DNA of 8,274 nt, taken from positions 1 through 8,274 of the forward strand of contig CAMZCW010000096.1 of NCBI GenBank assembly GCA_947305045.1. Direction: 5' to 3'. Below the pieces are notes generated by a model that saw only the letters and a list, made by a program, of their open reading frames with translations, had not been told where the DNA came from and made no database searches. Made by a program: the position numbers and the translations under genes. Shown piece after piece: positions 1 to 5,933 of this stretch (positions are counted from its first letter, which is position 1; every line of letters begins with the position of its first letter). The DNA comes from an uncultured Bacteroidales bacterium. Its GTDB lineage: Bacteria; Bacteroidota; Bacteroidia; Bacteroidales; UBA932.

Positions 1-2727
1 GGCTCCGTAAGCTGGGCCCCGGCCCGCATGGACCTGCAGACGCTTCCCAATTCCGTGTGCTCGGACCCGGCGCCGTGGAGCATCCAGCTGGTCTCCCATG
101 AGCCCCGCCACCAGGCGCAGCTGCAGATGGGAGAACGAAAGTATTTCAAGGCCTTCCGCTACATTATCGGCCAGGCATGGCATCCCGTGGCCTATCAGGT
201 TTTTCTGGGACATGCGCTGGGAGAAGGCGATGCCGTCACGGTGGAAACCGGCCTGTGGAACGGCACCCGCGCCCGCACGGCGGATTTCCTGAACTATTAC
301 CGTGTCGCACTGGACCAGGGAGACTACCGCAACTGGTTCCGCTGGCGCTATGACTCCTTCAAGCACTTCACGCCGGACCATTACAAAGTGGGGTACCTCA
401 CCGTGGCCGGTTCCCGCCTCCTGACCGGAAATCCCACCATCATGCATGAGAACGCGCAGAACGCCAGCAAACGGCCCTGGCTCCTTTCCCACAGCTTCCG
501 TAGCACACTCAAACGCAACGGTTTCCCGCACTTTAACGACGCCTTTCGCGCCATCCTGGATACGGTGAACCACGCTTGGCAGGCCGATGCCATCGCCCGC
601 GGACCGCTTATCCCGCAGGAGCAGTTTACCCCCGACGCGGCGCATCCCGTCTTTTACTGCTCGACCCAAATGGACAGCAACGGCACCCTTTTCGCCCTGC
701 GCGACGGATTTACGTATGCGCCGGAACTGGTGGCTATCCGGGACGGAATCGTGCGGCATGTCGCTTATATAAACGGGATGGATACGTCGCTTGCGTATGA
801 CCCCAACCTGAATCGGCTCTACTTCATGGAAGCGCGTTCGCATCCGCGCTGGAAGCTCGCCGGAGAGCGCGTTGTGGCCTATTATGACCTGGGCACCGGG
901 AAGCTGCATGACCTTGCCACCGGGCACCATTACCAGAATGCACAGCCCTCGGGAGACGGCTCGCGCATTGCCGTGGCGGAATATATGCCCGGCGGGGAGA
1001 ACTACGTGGTGCTGTTATCGGCACGGGATGGTTCCGTGCTGGCCCGTACGCGCGTCCCGGACGGCTTCCAGCCCACGGAATTCGGCTGGATAGGGGATAC
1101 GCTGTACACATCGGCCATCTCTGTAGGCGGCTACGGCATTTACCAGGTGGTGCCCCAGTGGCAGGAAATCCTGGCACCAAGCATCCAGAAGGTGACCAAT
1201 CTGGGCGGCAACGAAGACTACCTGGAGTGGGTATCGGACCCCACCGGCACCAACGAATTTTATCGTTTCTATCCCTCCACCGGACGGCTTTTGCAAATGA
1301 CCAGCAGCCGTTATGGCGTAGTGGACGTGATTACGGACGATAAAGACATGATCGCGACCACCACCACCCTCAACGGCGAGCACCTTTTCCGCACGCCGCT
1401 GGATTCCCTAAGGCCGCGGGAGGTGCGTTTTGCCGATGTAGCCCCGCATTTCCTTGCCGATACCATCACCGCGCAGGAACAGGCGCTGGGGCCGGGGCCG
1501 GACTTATCCCAGCCCGTTGCGCTCAGCAAGCCCAAACGCTACTACAAGTGGGGAAACCTGCTGCGGCTGCATTCCTGGCTGCCGCTGTATGTGAACTACG
1601 ATGCCGTGAAGGATGGTTCCATGGACTTTACCTACAAAACGGCTTCTATCGGCCTTACGGGCTTTTTCCAAAATTCCCTGGGGACGCTGTACGGCATGGC
1701 GGGATACAGTCTCCACCGCAGTCCGGACAACCGGGCCAACTGGCGGAACGCCTTTCATGCCAAACTGGTATATGCGGGGCAGTATCCGGTCTTTGAGGCC
1801 TCGCTGGACCTGGGAGACCGGGCCGCCCGGCATGTGTTCCTGAACCGTTTTGCCGATGGCGCCAAGCAGGAATTAGGCACGGGGTATTACCTTCGGAACG
1901 CACCGCTGGTGGAGGTTTCCGCACGCGTGTATGTGCCGCTCTCCTGGCACAAATATGGTCTCAATTACGGCTTTGTACCCCAGGTGCGGTATACCCTTAC
2001 CAACAACTGGCTCTCTACCGAGCCCGTTTTGTGGGAGGCCCCGGACCGCTTCGAAGGCTTGCCCGCCCATTATAAACTGGCCGGCATGGGGGGTGACGCT
2101 TCCGTGCTCATGCAGCGCTTCAGTGCATCGGCCCGTGGCTATGTCACCTTGCCCCGGGAGGAGAATCAAGTCTTTCCCCGCTGGGGCATTGGCCTGGAGG
2201 CGGGCGGTTCCTTCCGTCCTTCGCTGGATAAGGTGTTCATGCCCAGTATCTTTGGCTATCTGTACGGGTATTTGCCCGGCTTCTCCCGCACGCAGGGTAT
2301 CCGCCTCACCGCCATGGTGCAGCAGCAGCTCACCCCGGGCACCGGACTGTATTTCGGGGAGCTGGGAGCCAATGTGCTCCCGCGCGGTTTTGAAAGTGAT
2401 GCCCTTCAGGCGGTGGCCCAGGCCAGCCCCTTCCAGTTTAAGCTGACGGCCGACTATGCCATCCCCATCTATGTGGGAGACTGGTACATCCCCGGGGTGG
2501 CCCACATCCGCAACTTTGTGCTCACCCCGCACGGGGACTACATGGGCCTCTCCGGCGGCAATCTCTGGAGCGCCGGAGCAGACTTCACGGCAGAGCTGAC
2601 CAAACTCATCCTGCCCTTCAACTCTTCTCTGGGGGTTTCCTTCAGCTACCTTGGCGGCTCTTTCTACGCTGGCAGCGGCCAGGAGCGACCTTGGTCTGTG
2701 GAGCTCATCTTTGGCATGGACTTCTAA
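1..2727 (+). CDS. Outer-membrane protein: gluzincin-like peptidase, beta-propeller and C-terminal beta-barrel (5' truncated)
   Basis: The reading frame is open from base 1, and sequence that looks like part of the protein precedes the first ATG (28), so the true start lies outside the window. Residues here are counted from that ATG. An N-terminal zinc-peptidase region carries H24-E25-P26-R27-H28 and, 38 residues on, an E66-G-D-A-V motif, the spacing expected of a peptidase-MA-like gluzincin whose third zinc ligand is a Glu. The PDHYKVGY stretch near 116-123 also resembles this family. Residues about 200-460 have blade-like repeats of a TolB/WD40-type propeller. From about 505 (YYKWGNLL onward) the sequence alternates aromatic and polar strands, consistent with a beta-barrel, and it ends in Phe (LIFGMDF), the usual signal for barrel insertion. 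Cell location is inferred as outer membrane; substrate unknown. The proline inside HExxH is odd and may mean lost or altered catalysis. Family assignment is from recalled Bacteroidales homologues and is fairly sure; activity is not. Confidence 0.78.
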   Translation, partial: GSVSWAPARMDLQTLPNSVCSDPAPWSIQLVSHEPRHQAQLQMGERKYFKAFRYIIGQAWHPVAYQVFLGHALGEGDAVTVETGLWNGTRARTADFLNYYRVALDQGDYRNWFRWRYDSFKHFTPDHYKVGYLTVAGSRLLTGNPTIMHENAQNASKRPWLLSHSFRSTLKRNGFPHFNDAFRAILDTVNHAWQADAIARGPLIPQEQFTPDAAHPVFYCSTQMDSNGTLFALRDGFTYAPELVAIRDGIVRHVAYINGMDTSLAYDPNLNRLYFMEARSHPRWKLAGERVVAYYDLGTGKLHDLATGHHYQNAQPSGDGSRIAVAEYMPGGENYVVLLSARDGSVLARTRVPDGFQPTEFGWIGDTLYTSAISVGGYGIYQVVPQWQEILAPSIQKVTNLGGNEDYLEWVSDPTGTNEFYRFYPSTGRLLQMTSSRYGVVDVITDDKDMIATTTTLNGEHLFRTPLDSLRPREVRFADVAPHFLADTITAQEQALGPGPDLSQPVALSKPKRYYKWGNLLRLHSWLPLYVNYDAVKDGSMDFTYKTASIGLTGFFQNSLGTLYGMAGYSLHRSPDNRANWRNAFHAKLVYAGQYPVFEASLDLGDRAARHVFLNRFADGAKQELGTGYYLRNAPLVEVSARVYVPLSWHKYGLNYGFVPQVRYTLTNNWLSTEPVLWEAPDRFEGLPAHYKLAGMGGDASVLMQRFSASARGYVTLPREENQVFPRWGIGLEAGGSFRPSLDKVFMPSIFGYLYGYLPGFSRTQGIRLTAMVQQQLTPGTGLYFGELGANVLPRGFESDALQAVAQASPFQFKLTADYAIPIYVGDWYIPGVAHIRNFVLTPHGDYMGLSGGNLWSAGADFTAELTKLILPFNSSLGVSFSYLGGSFYAGSGQERPWSVELIFGMDF

Positions 2728-2744
2728 TCCGGCCCTCATCCCTG

Positions 2745-2810
2745 TTTCGGGCTCTTTTTGAGGACTCGTTTGGGCCCTCTCGTCCTTGCTTTGGGCCGTT
2801 TTTGAGGACG
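2745..2810. repeat. Short imperfect direct and inverted repeats after the outer-membrane gene
   Basis: Two imperfect copies of a roughly 20-nt segment (2745-2765 and 2790-2809) share a TTTsGGC start and end TTTTTGAGGAC. A third TTTGGGCC start occurs at 2769. AGGAC at 2761-2765 can pair with GTCCT at 2782-2786, and CGTCCT at 2781-2786 can instead pair with AGGACG at 2805-2810, so two mutually exclusive hairpins are possible. This could be the 3' end of the upstream transcript, but neither hairpin is followed by a clean T-run. No gene is visible between 2728 and the thyA start. Confidence 0.4.
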
Positions 2811-2830
2811 AAACTACTCTCCCCTGGACG

Positions 2831-2886
2831 TTAAAGCACAGTATAGTGGCTCAGAGCGTATTCTGGCAGGGGTCGATGTGCTTTAA
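2831..2886 (+). repeat. Palindrome-ended 56-nt repeat, array A copy 1
   Basis: Begins TTAAAGCACA and ends TGTGCTTTAA, a perfect 10-bp inverted pair. Inside, CAGA and TCTG flank a 6-nt loop. Adding the neighbouring GC on each side gives a 6-bp stem with one bulged T. The start of this copy is 103 nt beyond the upstream stop codon. It is followed by a 19-nt separator containing the palindrome CCCCGGGG. Confidence 0.9.
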
Positions 2887-2905
2887 TGAACCCCGGGGAG
2901 GGTGA

Positions 2906-2961
2906 TTAAAGCACAGTATAGTGGCTCAGAGCGTATTTTGGCAGAGGTCGGTGTGCTTTAA
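2906..2961 (+). repeat. Palindrome-ended 56-nt repeat, array A copy 2
   Basis: Same orientation as copy 1, with starts exactly 75 nt apart. Both 10-nt ends are unchanged. Inside, the TCTG arm reads TTTG, which still pairs with CAGA through a G-T (G-U in RNA) wobble on this strand. It is followed by a second separator, 2962-2980, almost identical to 2887-2905. Confidence 0.9.
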
Positions 2962-2980
2962 TGGACCCCGGGGAGGGTGA

Positions 2981-2991
2981 GCTTTAACGGG
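2981..2991 (+). repeat. Remnant of a repeat end in array A
   Basis: The 11-nt string GCTTTAACGGG is the exact complement of the separator/repeat junction seen at copies 4-6 of array B (CCCGTTAAAGC). It begins directly after the second array A separator, where a third unit would be expected. It therefore looks like a deleted copy of which only the end survives. The match is short, so chance is possible, but its position in register argues against that. Confidence 0.5.
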
Positions 2992-3009
2992 ATAGACAAG
3001 GGGAGGGCA

Positions 3010-3040
3010 TTGGGGAAATGAAAATAATTGCGTACATTTG
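3010..3040 (+). promoter_or_regulatory. Bacteroidota-type promoter for thyA-folA-galM
   Basis: TACATTTG at 3033-3040 matches the Bacteroidota -7 consensus TAnnTTTG exactly. A TTG at 3010-3012 lies 20 nt upstream, near the expected position of the -33 element. The predicted transcript start lies only a few bases after 3040, at or just before the thyA ATG at 3045, so the mRNA may be leaderless or nearly so. The elements are seen directly; promoter activity is inferred. Confidence 0.62.
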
Positions 3041-3044
3041 TAGT

Positions 3045-3839
3045 ATGCGACAGTACCTAGACCTCCTGCAACATATCCGGGAACACGGTGCCATGAAAGA
3101 AGACCGCACCGGGACGGGCACCCAGAGTGTGTTCGGCTACCAGATGCGGTTCAATCTGGCCGATGGTTTTCCGCTCCTGACCACCAAAAAAGTGCATCTT
3201 AAGTCCATTATCTATGAACTTTTGTGGTTCATTTCCGGCGACACCAACGTGCACTGGCTGCAGGAGCATGGGGTCACTATTTGGGACGAATGGGCCGGCC
3301 CGGACGGAGAACTGGGACCGGTGTACGGTCACCAGTGGCGTTCCTGGCCCGCGCCGGACGGGCGCAGCATCGACCAGCTGGGCCAAGTGATTGAGCAAAT
3401 CAAGCGTAACCCGGACTCCCGCCGCCTGCTGGTGAGCGCCTGGAACCCCGGGGAGGTGGACCGCATGGCTCTCCCTCCTTGCCATTGCCTGTTCCAGTTT
3501 TATGTGGCCGATGGCAAACTCTCCTGCCAGCTGTATCAGCGCAGCGCAGACGTTTTCCTGGGTGTGCCGTTCAACATTGCCTCCTATGCCCTCCTCACCC
3601 TTATGATTGCCCAGGAGTGCGGCCTGCAGCCCGGTGAGTTTATTCACACGACGGGGGACACCCACCTGTACAGGAACCATTTTGAGCAGGCGGCTCTGCA
3701 GCTGACCCGGGAGCCGCGGAAACTGCCCGTCATGCGCCTGAACCCGGAGGTGAAGTCCGTCTTTGACTTCAAGTACGAGGACTTCACGCTGGAAGGGTAC
3801 GACCCCTGGCCGGCCATCAAGGCGCCGGTGGCGGTGTGA
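3045..3839 (+). CDS. thyA: Thymidylate synthase
   Basis: Makes dTMP from dUMP using 5,10-methylene-tetrahydrofolate as carbon and hydride donor, releasing dihydrofolate; cytosolic homodimer. Starting at MRQYLDLL gives 264 residues, the same length as E. coli ThyA and in the same numbering. The phosphate-binding Arg is in DRTGTGT (R21), R126-R127 are in DSRR, the catalytic nucleophile is C146 in PPCH, and D169 and N177 match the dUMP-binding residues. [16 protein letters not shown] is a near-exact family signature. An in-frame ATG at 3018 would add nine residues not found in the family and would span the -7 promoter element, so 3045 is preferred. folA, whose product recycles the dihydrofolate, follows after 57 nt with no visible terminator or new promoter, so the genes are probably co-transcribed. 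All key residues are present and I am very sure of the function. Confidence 0.97.
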
Positions 3840-3896
3840 GATACGCTCGCTCCGCTCGATGTACAAAAGGGCACATAGAATGACTAAATAGAAGCT

Positions 3897-4394
3897 ATGC
3901 AAAAGTGTTTAATCGTGGCCGTGGGCCAGAACCATGAAATTGGCGTGAAGGGTGCCTTGCCTTGGCACATCTCCGCCGATTTACAATATTTCAAGCGCAC
4001 CACCAGGGGTTTTCCCGTGATCATGGGACGCACCACGTATTTTTCCCTGCCCGTTCGGCCGCTGCCGGGGCGCAAGAATATCGTCCTGAACCTGGGCGGA
4101 GACCCTATCCCTGAGGTTACCTGCGTGTACTCCTTCGAGGAGGCGTATGCGGCGGCAGAGGCTACCGGCGCGGAAAAGTGCTTTGTCATGGGCGGCGCAT
4201 CCGTGTACAAGGCCGCCCTGCCGGAGATGGACCTGCTGTACATCACCCATGTGCATGCGTCCGTTCCCGAGGCCGATGTCTTTTTCCCCGCCATCGACCC
4301 GCAAATCTGGGAGCGGGAGAGTACCTCGGAAACCTTCACGGACCCGGAAACCGGCTATGAGTTTGAATTTGTGATTTATCGAAAAAGAATATGA
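3897..4394 (+). CDS. folA: Dihydrofolate reductase
   Basis: Reduces dihydrofolate to tetrahydrofolate with NADPH, regenerating the cofactor that ThyA oxidises; cytosolic. The protein has 165 residues, near the usual size of about 160. It shows the substrate-loop motif IGVKGALPWH (residues 15-24), the catalytic acid D28 in SADLQYFK, the NADPH-binding stretch PVIMGRTTY (40-48), RPLPGRKN (54-61), and the glycine pair G99-G100 in FVMGGASVY. This is the trimethoprim-target chromosomal type, with nothing suggesting a plasmid resistance variant. The start is preceded by an A-rich stretch with no Shine-Dalgarno sequence, normal for Bacteroidota. The stop codon overlaps the galM start in ATGA, suggesting translational coupling. 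Confidence 0.96.
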   Translation: MQKCLIVAVGQNHEIGVKGALPWHISADLQYFKRTTRGFPVIMGRTTYFSLPVRPLPGRKNIVLNLGGDPIPEVTCVYSFEEAYAAAEATGAEKCFVMGGASVYKAALPEMDLLYITHVHASVPEADVFFPAIDPQIWERESTSETFTDPETGYEFEFVIYRKRI

Positions 4395-5437
4395 TTACCA
4401 AGGAGTTATGGGGCACTTTGCCCGGCGGAAAAGACGTTTTCCTGTACACCCTCAAAAATGCATCGGGCGCGTATGTGCAGCTCGCGAGCATCGGCGCGGC
4501 CATCGTCCGCATTGTGGTGCCGGACCGCGACAGCAAGCTGGAGGACGTGGTTATCGGCTATAAAAATCCGGCCGATTACCTGGCCGACGGTCCCTGCTGC
4601 GGGAAAATTCCCGGGCGTTTTGCCAACCGTATCGGCAAGGGAAAATTCACCTTGGACGGCGTGGAATATACCTTACCCATCAACAACGGTCCCAACCACC
4701 TGCACGGCGGCCCGGACGGCTTCCAGAACCAGGTTTGGGAAAGCCGTATAGAGGGCGATGCCGTGGAATTCATGTATTTTTCGGCCGATGGTGAGGCCGG
4801 CTACCCCGGCAACCTGAAGGTGGTGGCACACTACTCCTGGGGGGAAGACAACTCCCTCAAGCTGGTGATGACCGCCGAAACCGATAAACCCACCGTGGTG
4901 AACCTCACCAACCACGTGTACGTGAACCTGGACGGAGAGGCTTCCGGCAGCGTTCTTAAGCACAAGCTGGAGCTCAACGCCTCCCAGTGGCTGCCCACGG
5001 ACGAGACACTCATCCCCGTCGGCGAACCGCAGGATGTGGCCGGCACACCCATGGACTTTGTGGAGGCCAAGGAGATCGGCCAGGATATTCAGGCCGATTT
5101 CCCCGCGCTCAAATATGGCAAGGGCTACGACAATTGCTATCTGATCGATGGTGCCATGCCCGGACAGCTTTGCTCCGCGGCAGAGTTATGGGGTGCTACT
5201 TCCGGCCGCCACATGGAAGTGCTTACCACCCAGCCCGCCGTGCAGGTGTACACCGGCAACTGGCTGGTGGGCTGCCCTGCAGGCAAGACGGGCCGCGCAT
5301 ACCAGGACTACGACGCCGTGGCCATTGAGTGCCAGCACTGCCCGGACTCTCCCAACCGGCCGGACTTCCCCTCCACCGTCCTTCGCCCCGGCGAAGTGTT
5401 CGAGGAAGCCATCATCTGGGCCTTTGACGCCAGGTAG
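4391..5437 (+). CDS. galM: Aldose 1-epimerase (mutarotase)
   Basis: Interconverts the alpha and beta anomers of hexoses such as galactose and glucose, usually feeding the Leloir pathway. The protein has 348 residues, the normal family length. Visible signatures are GRFANRI (75-81), NHLHGG with H105, NHVYVNLDG with H175, the substrate-binding D247 in GYDNCY, and E313 in AIECQHCPDSPN. These match the His, His, Asp and catalytic Glu of characterised GalM. No signal peptide is seen, so it is probably cytosolic, although some Bacteroidota relatives are exported. Its start overlaps the folA stop by 4 nt, so it is translated with the folate genes even though no galactose gene is in view. It is the last gene of the cluster and is followed by a probable terminator. 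Confidence 0.95.
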   Translation: MITKELWGTLPGGKDVFLYTLKNASGAYVQLASIGAAIVRIVVPDRDSKLEDVVIGYKNPADYLADGPCCGKIPGRFANRIGKGKFTLDGVEYTLPINNGPNHLHGGPDGFQNQVWESRIEGDAVEFMYFSADGEAGYPGNLKVVAHYSWGEDNSLKLVMTAETDKPTVVNLTNHVYVNLDGEASGSVLKHKLELNASQWLPTDETLIPVGEPQDVAGTPMDFVEAKEIGQDIQADFPALKYGKGYDNCYLIDGAMPGQLCSAAELWGATSGRHMEVLTTQPAVQVYTGNWLVGCPAGKTGRAYQDYDAVAIECQHCPDSPNRPDFPSTVLRPGEVFEEAIIWAFDAR

Positions 5438-5465
5438 AGGTATCATTCCTTGTCATACCTTAAGT

Positions 5466-5491
5466 GTATCTCCTTCCCCGGAGATGCTTTT
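5466..5491 (+). terminator. Probable intrinsic terminator of thyA-folA-galM
   Basis: GTATCTCC (5466-5473) pairs with GGAGATGC (5480-5487), including one G-T wobble, around the 6-nt loop TTCCCC, and is directly followed by TTTT. It lies 28 nt after the galM stop. The T-run is short, so efficiency may be modest. On the opposite strand no T-run follows, so it would act mainly on galM transcripts. Confidence 0.6.
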
Positions 5492-5500
5492 GGTGTTGCC

Positions 5501-5516
5501 ATGGGGTCCTCCCCAT
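5501..5516. other. Small hairpin between galM terminator and array B
   Basis: ATGGGG and CCCCAT form a perfect 6-bp stem around TCCT, followed by TTTA on the + strand. It may back up the preceding terminator. The short stem and weak T-run make this tentative. Confidence 0.3.
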
Positions 5517-5521
5517 TTACA

Positions 5522-5543
5522 TCACCCTCCTTCCCGGGGTTCG
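5522..5543 (-). repeat. Separator-type sequence at the galM side of array B
   Basis: Read on the minus strand this 22-nt segment resembles the array A separators: it contains GAACCCCGGG and ends GAGGGTGA, with a few extra bases between. It is closer to the array A separators than to the other array B separators, which carry GGGTCCC instead. It adjoins copy 3 at 5544, which shows the homology between the arrays extends past the 56-nt core. Confidence 0.55.
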
Positions 5544-5599
5544 TTAAAGCACACCAACCCCTGCCAGAACACGCTCTGAGCCACTATGCTGTGCTTTAA
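5544..5599 (-). repeat. Palindrome-ended 56-nt repeat, array B copy 3
   Basis: Reverse-complement orientation relative to array A, with both 10-nt ends identical to every other copy and the inner CAGA/TCTG pair intact. Unique change: one base in the inner 6-nt loop. A 19-nt separator (5600-5618) follows. Confidence 0.9.
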
Positions 5600-5618
5600 T
5601 CACCCTCACAGGGACCCG

Positions 5619-5674
5619 TTAAAGCACACCGAACCCCGCCAGAATATGCTCTGAGCCACTATGCTGTGCTTTAA
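5619..5674 (-). repeat. Palindrome-ended 56-nt repeat, array B copy 4
   Basis: Starts 75 nt after copy 3. It differs from copy 5 at a single base in the inner loop, suggesting recent tandem duplication. The following separator (5675-5693) is identical to 5600-5618. Confidence 0.9.
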
Positions 5675-5693
5675 TCACCCTCACAGGGACCCG

Positions 5694-5749
5694 TTAAAGC
5701 ACACCGAACCCCGCCAGAATACGCTCTGAGCCACTATGCTGTGCTTTAA
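5694..5749 (-). repeat. Palindrome-ended 56-nt repeat, array B copy 5
   Basis: Starts 75 nt after copy 4, with ends and inner stem intact. The separator that follows (5750-5767) is 18 nt rather than 19 and differs slightly from the previous two. Confidence 0.9.
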
Positions 5750-5767
5750 TCACCCCCCAGGGACCCG

Positions 5768-5823
5768 TTAAAGCACACCAACCCCTGCCAGAATATGCTC
5801 TGAGCCACTATGCTGTGCTTTAA
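5768..5823 (-). repeat. Palindrome-ended 56-nt repeat, array B copy 6
   Basis: Last copy of the array, starting 74 nt after copy 5. It differs from copy 3 at two bases, both in the inner loop. On the minus strand it is the first copy met by transcription leaving the symporter genes, 110 nt past their stop codon. No separator follows on the right side. Confidence 0.9.
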
Positions 5824-5865
5824 TGGATGGACGGAAGGGAGGGAAGACGCAAGCCGGGCCTGCTG

Positions 5866-5901
5866 CCGCCACGGTCTGAGCCCAAAATGCGCCCGTGGCG
5901 G
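5866..5901. other. Perfect 9-bp stem-loop downstream of the symporter operon
   Basis: CCGCCACGG (5866-5874) and CCGTGGCGG (5893-5901) are exact complements around an 18-nt loop. The stem sits between the symporter stop codon and array B. No T-run follows on the minus strand, so it is not a classical intrinsic terminator. It could protect the 3' end or assist factor-dependent termination. I see no gene between 5824 and 5933. Confidence 0.5.
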
Positions 5902-5933
5902 GACCGAAGAAACATGGAACGGAAGGAAGCCCG

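Follow-up and report, generated by a model that had tools for sequence, protein, structure and literature searches.

The question raised by the 8,274-nt contig CAMZCW010000096.1 of an uncultured Bacteroidales bacterium (assembly GCA_947305045.1), the whole of which is referred to here as the window, is what its six copies of a 56-nt repeat with inverted 10-nt ends are, and whether they have any bearing on the orientation of the thyA, folA and galM genes that lie between them. The repeats (hereafter TTAAAGCACA units) are very probably short, non-autonomous, REPIN-like repetitive extragenic palindromic (REP) elements. Their inverted 10-nt ends would serve as substrate for a REP-associated tyrosine transposase (RAYT), an enzyme of the HUH/Y1 type that acts on single-stranded DNA and is encoded elsewhere in the genome. 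What was computed is a dispersed family with kept ends, arranged in tandem arrays and associated with an exclusive clade of RAYTs, with differences in copy number at one site between related genomes and inverted array pairs at the edges of some segments that differ in orientation from genome to genome.

Six full copies of a 56-nt unit had been reported in the first-pass annotation of the window, and this was confirmed. A scan allowing up to 3 mismatches returned these six as the sole matches, and there were none in 200 shuffles. The strand given is that on which the inner part of the unit is C-rich.

2831-2886, minus strand: 56-nt unit of array 1, exact copy
2906-2961, minus strand: 56-nt unit of array 1, exact copy
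5544-5599, plus strand: 56-nt unit of array 2, exact copy
5619-5674, plus strand: 56-nt unit of array 2, exact copy
5694-5749, plus strand: 56-nt unit of array 2, exact copy
5768-5823, plus strand: 56-nt unit of array 2, exact copy

The copies form two arrays of opposite orientation, with linkers of 18-19 nt. Start-to-start spacing is 75 in the array of two (2831-2961), located between an open reading frame (ORF) of 899 aa, ORF A, and thyA, and 75, 75 and 74 in the array of four (5544-5823), flanked by galM and by an opposite-strand transporter gene. With the copies placed in one common orientation, nine of the 56 columns vary (11, 13, 15, 17, 19, 24, 27, 29 and 45). The 20 end positions are free of variation and the proposed inner stem is affected in column 24 only, as first described.

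The units are not confined to this locus, which would have refuted the first-pass reading, as relatives carry copies genome-wide. The contigs of 84,980 species (by the database's description) were scanned for the two 10-mers at a distance of 21-51 nt. This yielded 87 stretches. Records named Bacteroidales or Bacteroidia account for 59, and the names of many of these point to rumen samples. The remaining 28 have one palindrome each, except L061, and look like chance or terminator palindromes. L061 belongs to a metagenome-assembled genome (MAG) named Fibrobacter; its positions 1971-3923 are 98% identical to L056 4823-6774, from a contig of the Bacteroidales MAG G002, and its placement is probably a binning error. 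Whole-genome counts were made in 15 genomes using a pattern with 8-nt ends, and gave 47 matches in G002, 26 in G001, 20 in G013, 18 in G003, 10 in G006, three each in G009 and G015, one each in G004, G005, G010, G011 and G012, and none in G007, G008 and G014. The same pattern read backwards gave no match in any of the 15. A pattern with 9-nt ends matched four of 299 sampled genomes in the family of G002, and the repeat pattern was found in seven of 101 sampled genomes of the genus of G001, so the distribution is patchy. Like REP sequences, the units are multicopy and mainly extragenic: 44 of 53 arrays overlap no ORF of at least 100 aa, and ORFs of that size occupy 92-93% of the contigs in G001 and G002.

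A profile search over 41 loci and the window gave 144 matches, of which 132 are 56 nt long and 87 have exact ends. In the 129 copies above 25 bits the mean share of the commonest base is 0.979 over the 20 end columns against 0.688 inside, and in the 43 of these lacking exact ends it is 0.944 against 0.707, figures which lean towards the ends because the profile was made from exact-end copies and the loci were picked by exact ends. The end positions vary less than the inner ones, contrary to the other outcome that would have refuted the first-pass reading, stem positions varying as freely as loop positions. A second type of unit, 43-45 nt in length, has the same ends and a different interior. 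The lengths of 192 distinct units are 56 (114 units), 55 (3), 57 (2), 54 (2), 45 (33), 44 (32) and 43 nt (6). The two types differ by about 11 nt, which is one helical turn. The 44-nt type was seen in further Bacteroidales, namely G368 (8 copies), L008, L030, L043 and L060. Exact-ended units are separated by linkers of 18 nt in 29 cases and 19 nt in 115, with overlapping loci counted repeatedly, and the tandem period is 74-75 nt in the 56-nt type and approximately 62-64 nt in the shorter one. Inverted conserved ends around a spacer of conserved length are the layout of a REPIN.

The outer ends read TTAA on both sides in the commonest form of the unit (TTAA-AGCACA...TGTGCT-TTAA), which is what would be seen if the units were miniature inverted-repeat transposable elements of a DDE transposase with TTAA as target duplication. 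We regard this origin as extremely improbable, since TTAA is dispensable (the outer base is C/G in many units of G013 and G286, CTAAAG...TTTAG), the units stand in tandem with linkers of 18 or 19 nt, and the transposase that adjoins them is of the HUH type.

The folding of the unit was then considered. Single-strand folds of six window stretches are better than those of shuffles (z -3.1 to -5.3, DNA parameters), yet the inner stem proposed in the first-pass annotation was not supported. Its pairs 22-35 and 23-34 are standard in only 72 and 55 of the 129 copies, pairs 24-33 and 25-32 (standard in 116 and 125) are almost invariant, no inner-stem covariation was found among 51 diverged representatives, and RNAalifold recovers the outer stem only. 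Covariation in the outer stem could be tested at the outermost and innermost end pairs, which the search pattern left free, the other eight being fixed. The outermost pair is T-A in 150 and C-G in 18 of the 192 distinct units and is paired in 173, compared to 157.1 in shuffles (none of 2000 as high); all of this covariation comes from the 43-45-nt type and none from within the 56-nt type. The innermost pair, paired in 148 units compared to 147.3 in shuffles, shows none. Nor was a spacer hairpin with compensatory changes found, as a REPIN would have. These folds, and the mostly extragenic position of the units, might suggest selection for a folded RNA, in elements such as terminators, mRNA stabilisers or regulatory RNAs. 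Such a role is most improbable given the lack of inner-stem covariation, the lack of any Rfam match at the repeats, the neighbouring genes in every orientation (++ 9, -- 8, +- 7 and -+ 4 among 28 arrays with clear neighbours) and a copy number which varies from 0 to 10 among relatives at one site, the thyA locus. Of the earlier view that the units act as folded RNA or single-stranded DNA, the kept ends, the drifting interior and the dispersed family stand and the inner stem does not; action as folded single-stranded DNA is plausible, because the family goes with a HUH single-strand transposase.

Four other identities were tried and dropped. For a named RNA family, the Rfam search returned one sub-threshold match, away from the repeats. 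In some arrays the C-rich strand is open across 75 nt, as in a coding repeat, yet the period of the 45-nt type is 64 nt and there are units that differ by 1 nt. A CRISPR array was rejected on layout, as unit interiors and linkers are both alike within an array, in contrast to the unrelated spacers of CRISPR, and an attC site was also rejected on layout.

The candidate transposase was not reached through Pfam. Y1_Tnp (PF01797) matched at 46 places in 14 of the 15 genomes, and among the 28 of these loci that were read (the first 12 without a unit) only G013:C117 had units, approximately 6 kb from the gene. Querying eight genomes with a single RAYT protein gave 53 matches, some of them between inverted arrays, and was the sole route to the cognate gene. 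A tree was made from 70 candidate loci in 14 genomes, of which 66 gave an ORF (G001:C32, G002:C1, G008:C16 and G009:C23 did not) and 65 were entered, G286:C1 being too short at 160 aa. Six ORFs in the tree adjoin units. Five of them, G001:C12, G002:C38, G006:C26, G013:C135 and G286:C14, form one exclusive clade with 100/100 support, which has one gene per genome and spans both the 56-nt and the 43-45-nt unit types. The sixth, G002:C53, is degenerate, lacks the HxH motif and lies between arrays, but belongs to another clade. Adjacency to units requires two changes on the tree, compared to a mean of 5.8 when shuffled (none of 500 as low). Most RAYT loci were read with 1.5-3 kb of flank, and more distant units, such as those 6 kb from G013:C117 and 10 kb from G006:C5, would escape this count. 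As is typical of a RAYT, the gene is flanked by inverted repeats of the family: units occur on both sides in G001:C12, G002:C38, G006:C26 and G286:C14 (the near ones within 300 nt, the far ones at up to about 2 kb), and on one side of G013:C135 within the DNA examined. It might be argued that arrays and RAYTs meet by chance, both crowding into repeat-rich intergenic spots, as several other repeat families adjoin the arrays and the degenerate G002:C53 also lies between two of them. That is hard to credit when all five array-adjacent RAYTs with an intact HxH fall into one clade, one per genome and with both unit types.

The G001 RAYT protein gave 133 homologues. In a 62-row alignment T58, H59, H61, Y118, R121, N122 and W137 are invariant and F60 is nearly so. 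The AF2 model of a clade RAYT (pLDDT 83.7) had 4er8, the E. coli RAYT with REP hairpin, as its best match in both structure comparisons. The clade protein is thus predicted to have the Y1/HUH fold, with HuH and Tyr in the invariant H59, H61 and Y118, as expected of a RAYT.

Several observations weigh against assigning the units to this enzyme. A GT[AG]G tetranucleotide foot is not part of the unit ends as read. None of the five clade proteins was matched by Pfam Y1_Tnp at E 0.1, and the NCBIfam model for REP-associated tyrosine transposases (REP_Tyr_transpos) gave E 2.4e-4 and 21 bits for G001 and 12.7 bits for G286, short of its cut-off of 80. In the 101-genome genus sample 24 genomes have a match at 1e-30, with relatives of at least 60% identity in G001, G002 and G006 only, and G363 has a 46%-identical RAYT (with one internal stop) and no match to the repeat pattern. 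Conversely, the searches made turned up no RAYT of the clade in G003 (17-18 copies) or G368 (8 copies). G003 keeps the RAYT site, but almost all of the gene is missing between its array and the restart of homology at position 5193 of G001:C12, where the RAYT ends at 5252. Either units can persist after their transposase has been lost, therefore, or the gene is absent from the assembly. The window has no RAYT gene, and the link between its units and the RAYT is therefore one of kinship.

With the units placed in the REP/RAYT class, the surrounding locus can be described. The GalM label comes from Pfam (PF01263), and those of ThyA, FolA, the transporter and a thioredoxin-like ORF (D) were read from translations; ORF A has no Pfam match at E 0.1.

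3018-5437, plus strand: thyA-folA-galM segment, opposite to the transporter in comparison with G001, G002, G003 and G004
2831-2980, minus strand: arm 1 of a long inverted repeat (array 1), 86% identical to 5522-5674 over 153 columns
5522-5823, plus strand: arm 2 of the long inverted repeat (array 2), same arm comparison
about 2976-2991, no strand assigned: GCTTTAAC, left over from a further unit, at the end of array 1 nearest thyA, from its sequence and inverted match
2735-2810, no strand assigned: two CTCRTCC...GAGGAC repeats of another intergenic family beside array 1, with similar ones beside the G002 array
5856-5908, no strand assigned: CCGCCACGG...CGTGGCGG hairpin element beside array 2, with a homologous piece near the G003 unit (84.9% to L145 4986-4935)

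The gene order in G001, G002 and G003 is ORF A, D, galM-folA-thyA and the transporter, all on one strand except D, and in the stretch of G004 examined galM-folA-thyA and the transporter are related in the same way. In the window thyA-folA-galM is inverted relative to the transporter, its thyA side borders on ORF A and both of its ends carry an array; that the transporter comes next to galM rests on nucleotide matches. Between D and galM there are no units in G001, one in G003 and 10 in G002, and the thyA/transporter junction has no unit in G001 or G003, in both of which the sequences matching the window meet there within 6 nt. ThyA of the window shares 96% identity with its counterparts in G001 and G003, 93% with G002 and 91% with G004, a kinship which favours a change in the window's own lineage. 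The orders in G006 (D<, A>, thyA>, folA>, transporter>), G013 (A<, D>, thyA>, folA>, galM<) and G005 (galM>, thyA>, folA<) differ again, and in G006 and G013, too, the 5' end of thyA is turned towards ORF A or the gene next to it. Gene order at the locus is therefore fluid both with and without units, and the window order may be either the older or the newer one. The window may be a chimeric assembly, a misjoin driven by the repeats being less likely because the arms are 86% identical. In G003 an inverted copy of about 40 nt of the 3' end of ORF A was seen by eye in the intergenic region 3' of galM (L145, about 4830-4880), and is perhaps the footprint of an earlier flip.

Orientation differences were also sought elsewhere, in the array-bearing contigs (624 kb from G001, 734 kb from G002 and a smaller portion of G003). 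Between consecutive matches there are six strand switches in G001-G002 and seven in G003-G001, two of the latter being due to a copied element. Without that element there are 11 junctions, representing eight inversion events. Five junctions (three events: G002 C10, G003 C4/C121 and G003 C56) coincide with arrays in one or both of the genomes compared, against approximately 3.3% of the G001 sequence lying within 700 nt of an array (binomial 1.6e-5, which treats junctions as independent although those of one event are not). G003-G002 adds four switches, all at arrays and from the same events. Eleven of the 12 neighbouring array pairs lying no more than 4 kb apart are inverted, orthologous pairs being recounted (seven of eight distinct loci), and the arms of inverted pairs are 74-95% identical. 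Such numbers would suit a dedicated DNA inversion system that flips gene-sized segments at the arrays, with the RAYT as a bystander. This is very unlikely: the statistics are softened by the non-independence just mentioned, five events are away from arrays and two of those have another RAYT gene at the junction (G001:C25, 62.9-65.6 kb, and G002:C3, 63.5-65.7 kb), the array-flanked C160/C58/C23 segment is collinear in G001, G002 and G003, as is the C12/C38 segment in G001 and G002, and arms that differ to this extent are unlike the sites of conservative site-specific recombination. The two small inversions at G001:C25 and G002:C3 have no TTAAAGCACA units, and inverted repeats of other families lie around them.

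Under the REPIN-like reading favoured here, the RAYT of the clade would cut and copy them, the arrays would grow by tandem amplification, and inverted array pairs might promote some of the orientation changes via homologous recombination, template switching or action of the transposase. The C10 segment has arrays at both ends in G002, and at one end only in G003 and G005 (one unit) and G001 (two units); at the unit-free end the matches abut within about 10 nt. In both the window and G002 C10, arrays at the two ends go with the opposite orientation of the segment, whereas in G003 only one end has an array and the other junction is free of units. For C10, a single step would suffice, in which the inversion comes with an inverted copy of the array, and so would two, insertion of an array followed by recombination. 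A stronger proposal is that the REP/RAYT lineage causes genes to flip: the array beside one end of a gene would give an inverted copy beside the other during or after inversion, and REP arrays with their HUH transposase would be a steady source of gene-sized inversions. This we hold to be doubtful, given the orders around thyA in G005, G006 and G013, which vary with no unit at the locus. These orders also count against the REPIN-like reading as a whole, as do the five of eight events that are away from arrays and the failure to find any insertion with clean boundaries. Junctions were read for target duplications at the flips and none was recognised, and no inverted repeat was seen in three stretches beside the flipped genes of G005 and G013.

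Several REP/RAYT systems coexist in these genomes. Six of eight distinct other RAYT ORFs examined have flanking repeats, none of the TTAAAGCACA family. They adjoin tandem repeats such as GAAGGTCCA...TGGACCTTC, with a 52-nt period (L113 1312-1375 and 2855-3021), and at L327 690-1092 a RAYT goes with a 75-nt tandem array unrelated to TTAAAGCACA units. L245 and L233 also have RAYT genes flanked by their own repeats. Two GAAGGTCCA...TGGACCTTC elements lie in the thyA/transporter junction of G002 (L144 8291-8461; G002:C24:13290-13460), which is nearly empty in G001 and G003. The TTAAAGCACA units with their exclusive clade and the other RAYTs beside other repeats fit the published rule of one repeat family per RAYT lineage (PMC2817692, PMC6006769).

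The first-pass annotation recognised no named repeat family with these ends. For the family itself this holds, as our searches, which covered open-licence papers, found it nowhere in print and neither 10-mer led to a relevant paper among those listed; the kind, on the other hand, does have a name, REP/REPIN with RAYT. The present family is a REP/REPIN-like one with its own RAYT clade, a new version of a known kind. It identifies in Bacteroidales a RAYT clade unseen by Pfam together with its cognate repeat.

In REPtrons, REP sequences with a RAYT (TnpA_REP; Nunvar 2010, PMC2817692), many-copy extragenic palindromic repeats likewise go with one RAYT each. The TTAAAGCACA units differ in having no GT[AG]G foot, 10-nt arms and an interior of 23-36 nt, and the clade RAYT in its length of about 300 aa and in being unmatched by Pfam Y1_Tnp. 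Pseudomonas fluorescens SBW25 has tandem REPIN clusters beside RAYTs (Bertels and Rainey 2011, PMC3116915), which resemble the present arrays in the inverted doublet of conserved ends, the less conserved spacer of kept length, the tandem clusters including flanks, and the position beside RAYTs. Here, however, the ends are simple 10-mers rather than self-palindromic REPs, copies are far fewer and the spacer has no compensatory changes. TnpA_Y1 subclass 2.6, which includes RAYT group 5 (Quentin 2018, PMC6006769), is similar in being mostly from Bacteroidetes and in having atypical flanking structures without GT[AG]G, with copies elsewhere in the genome. Its motifs are NH[LIV]H and YIH[QN]NP with a median length of 179 aa, whereas the clade here has THFH and Y[VI][FL]RN(C/S)T at about 300 aa, a comparison of printed motifs. 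The present family extends REP/RAYT coupling to repeats without a GTAG guide, and DNA recognition by such a RAYT becomes testable. Finally, REP clusters are rearrangement hot spots in E. coli (PMC3161906), where palindrome-rich intergenic arrays are also located at rearrangement junctions. In that system the junctions are new ones in starving cells, whereas those described here are differences between related genomes; REP arrays at gene-sized orientation differences, including those of the housekeeping genes thyA and folA, offer a test of the rearrangement idea in natural populations.

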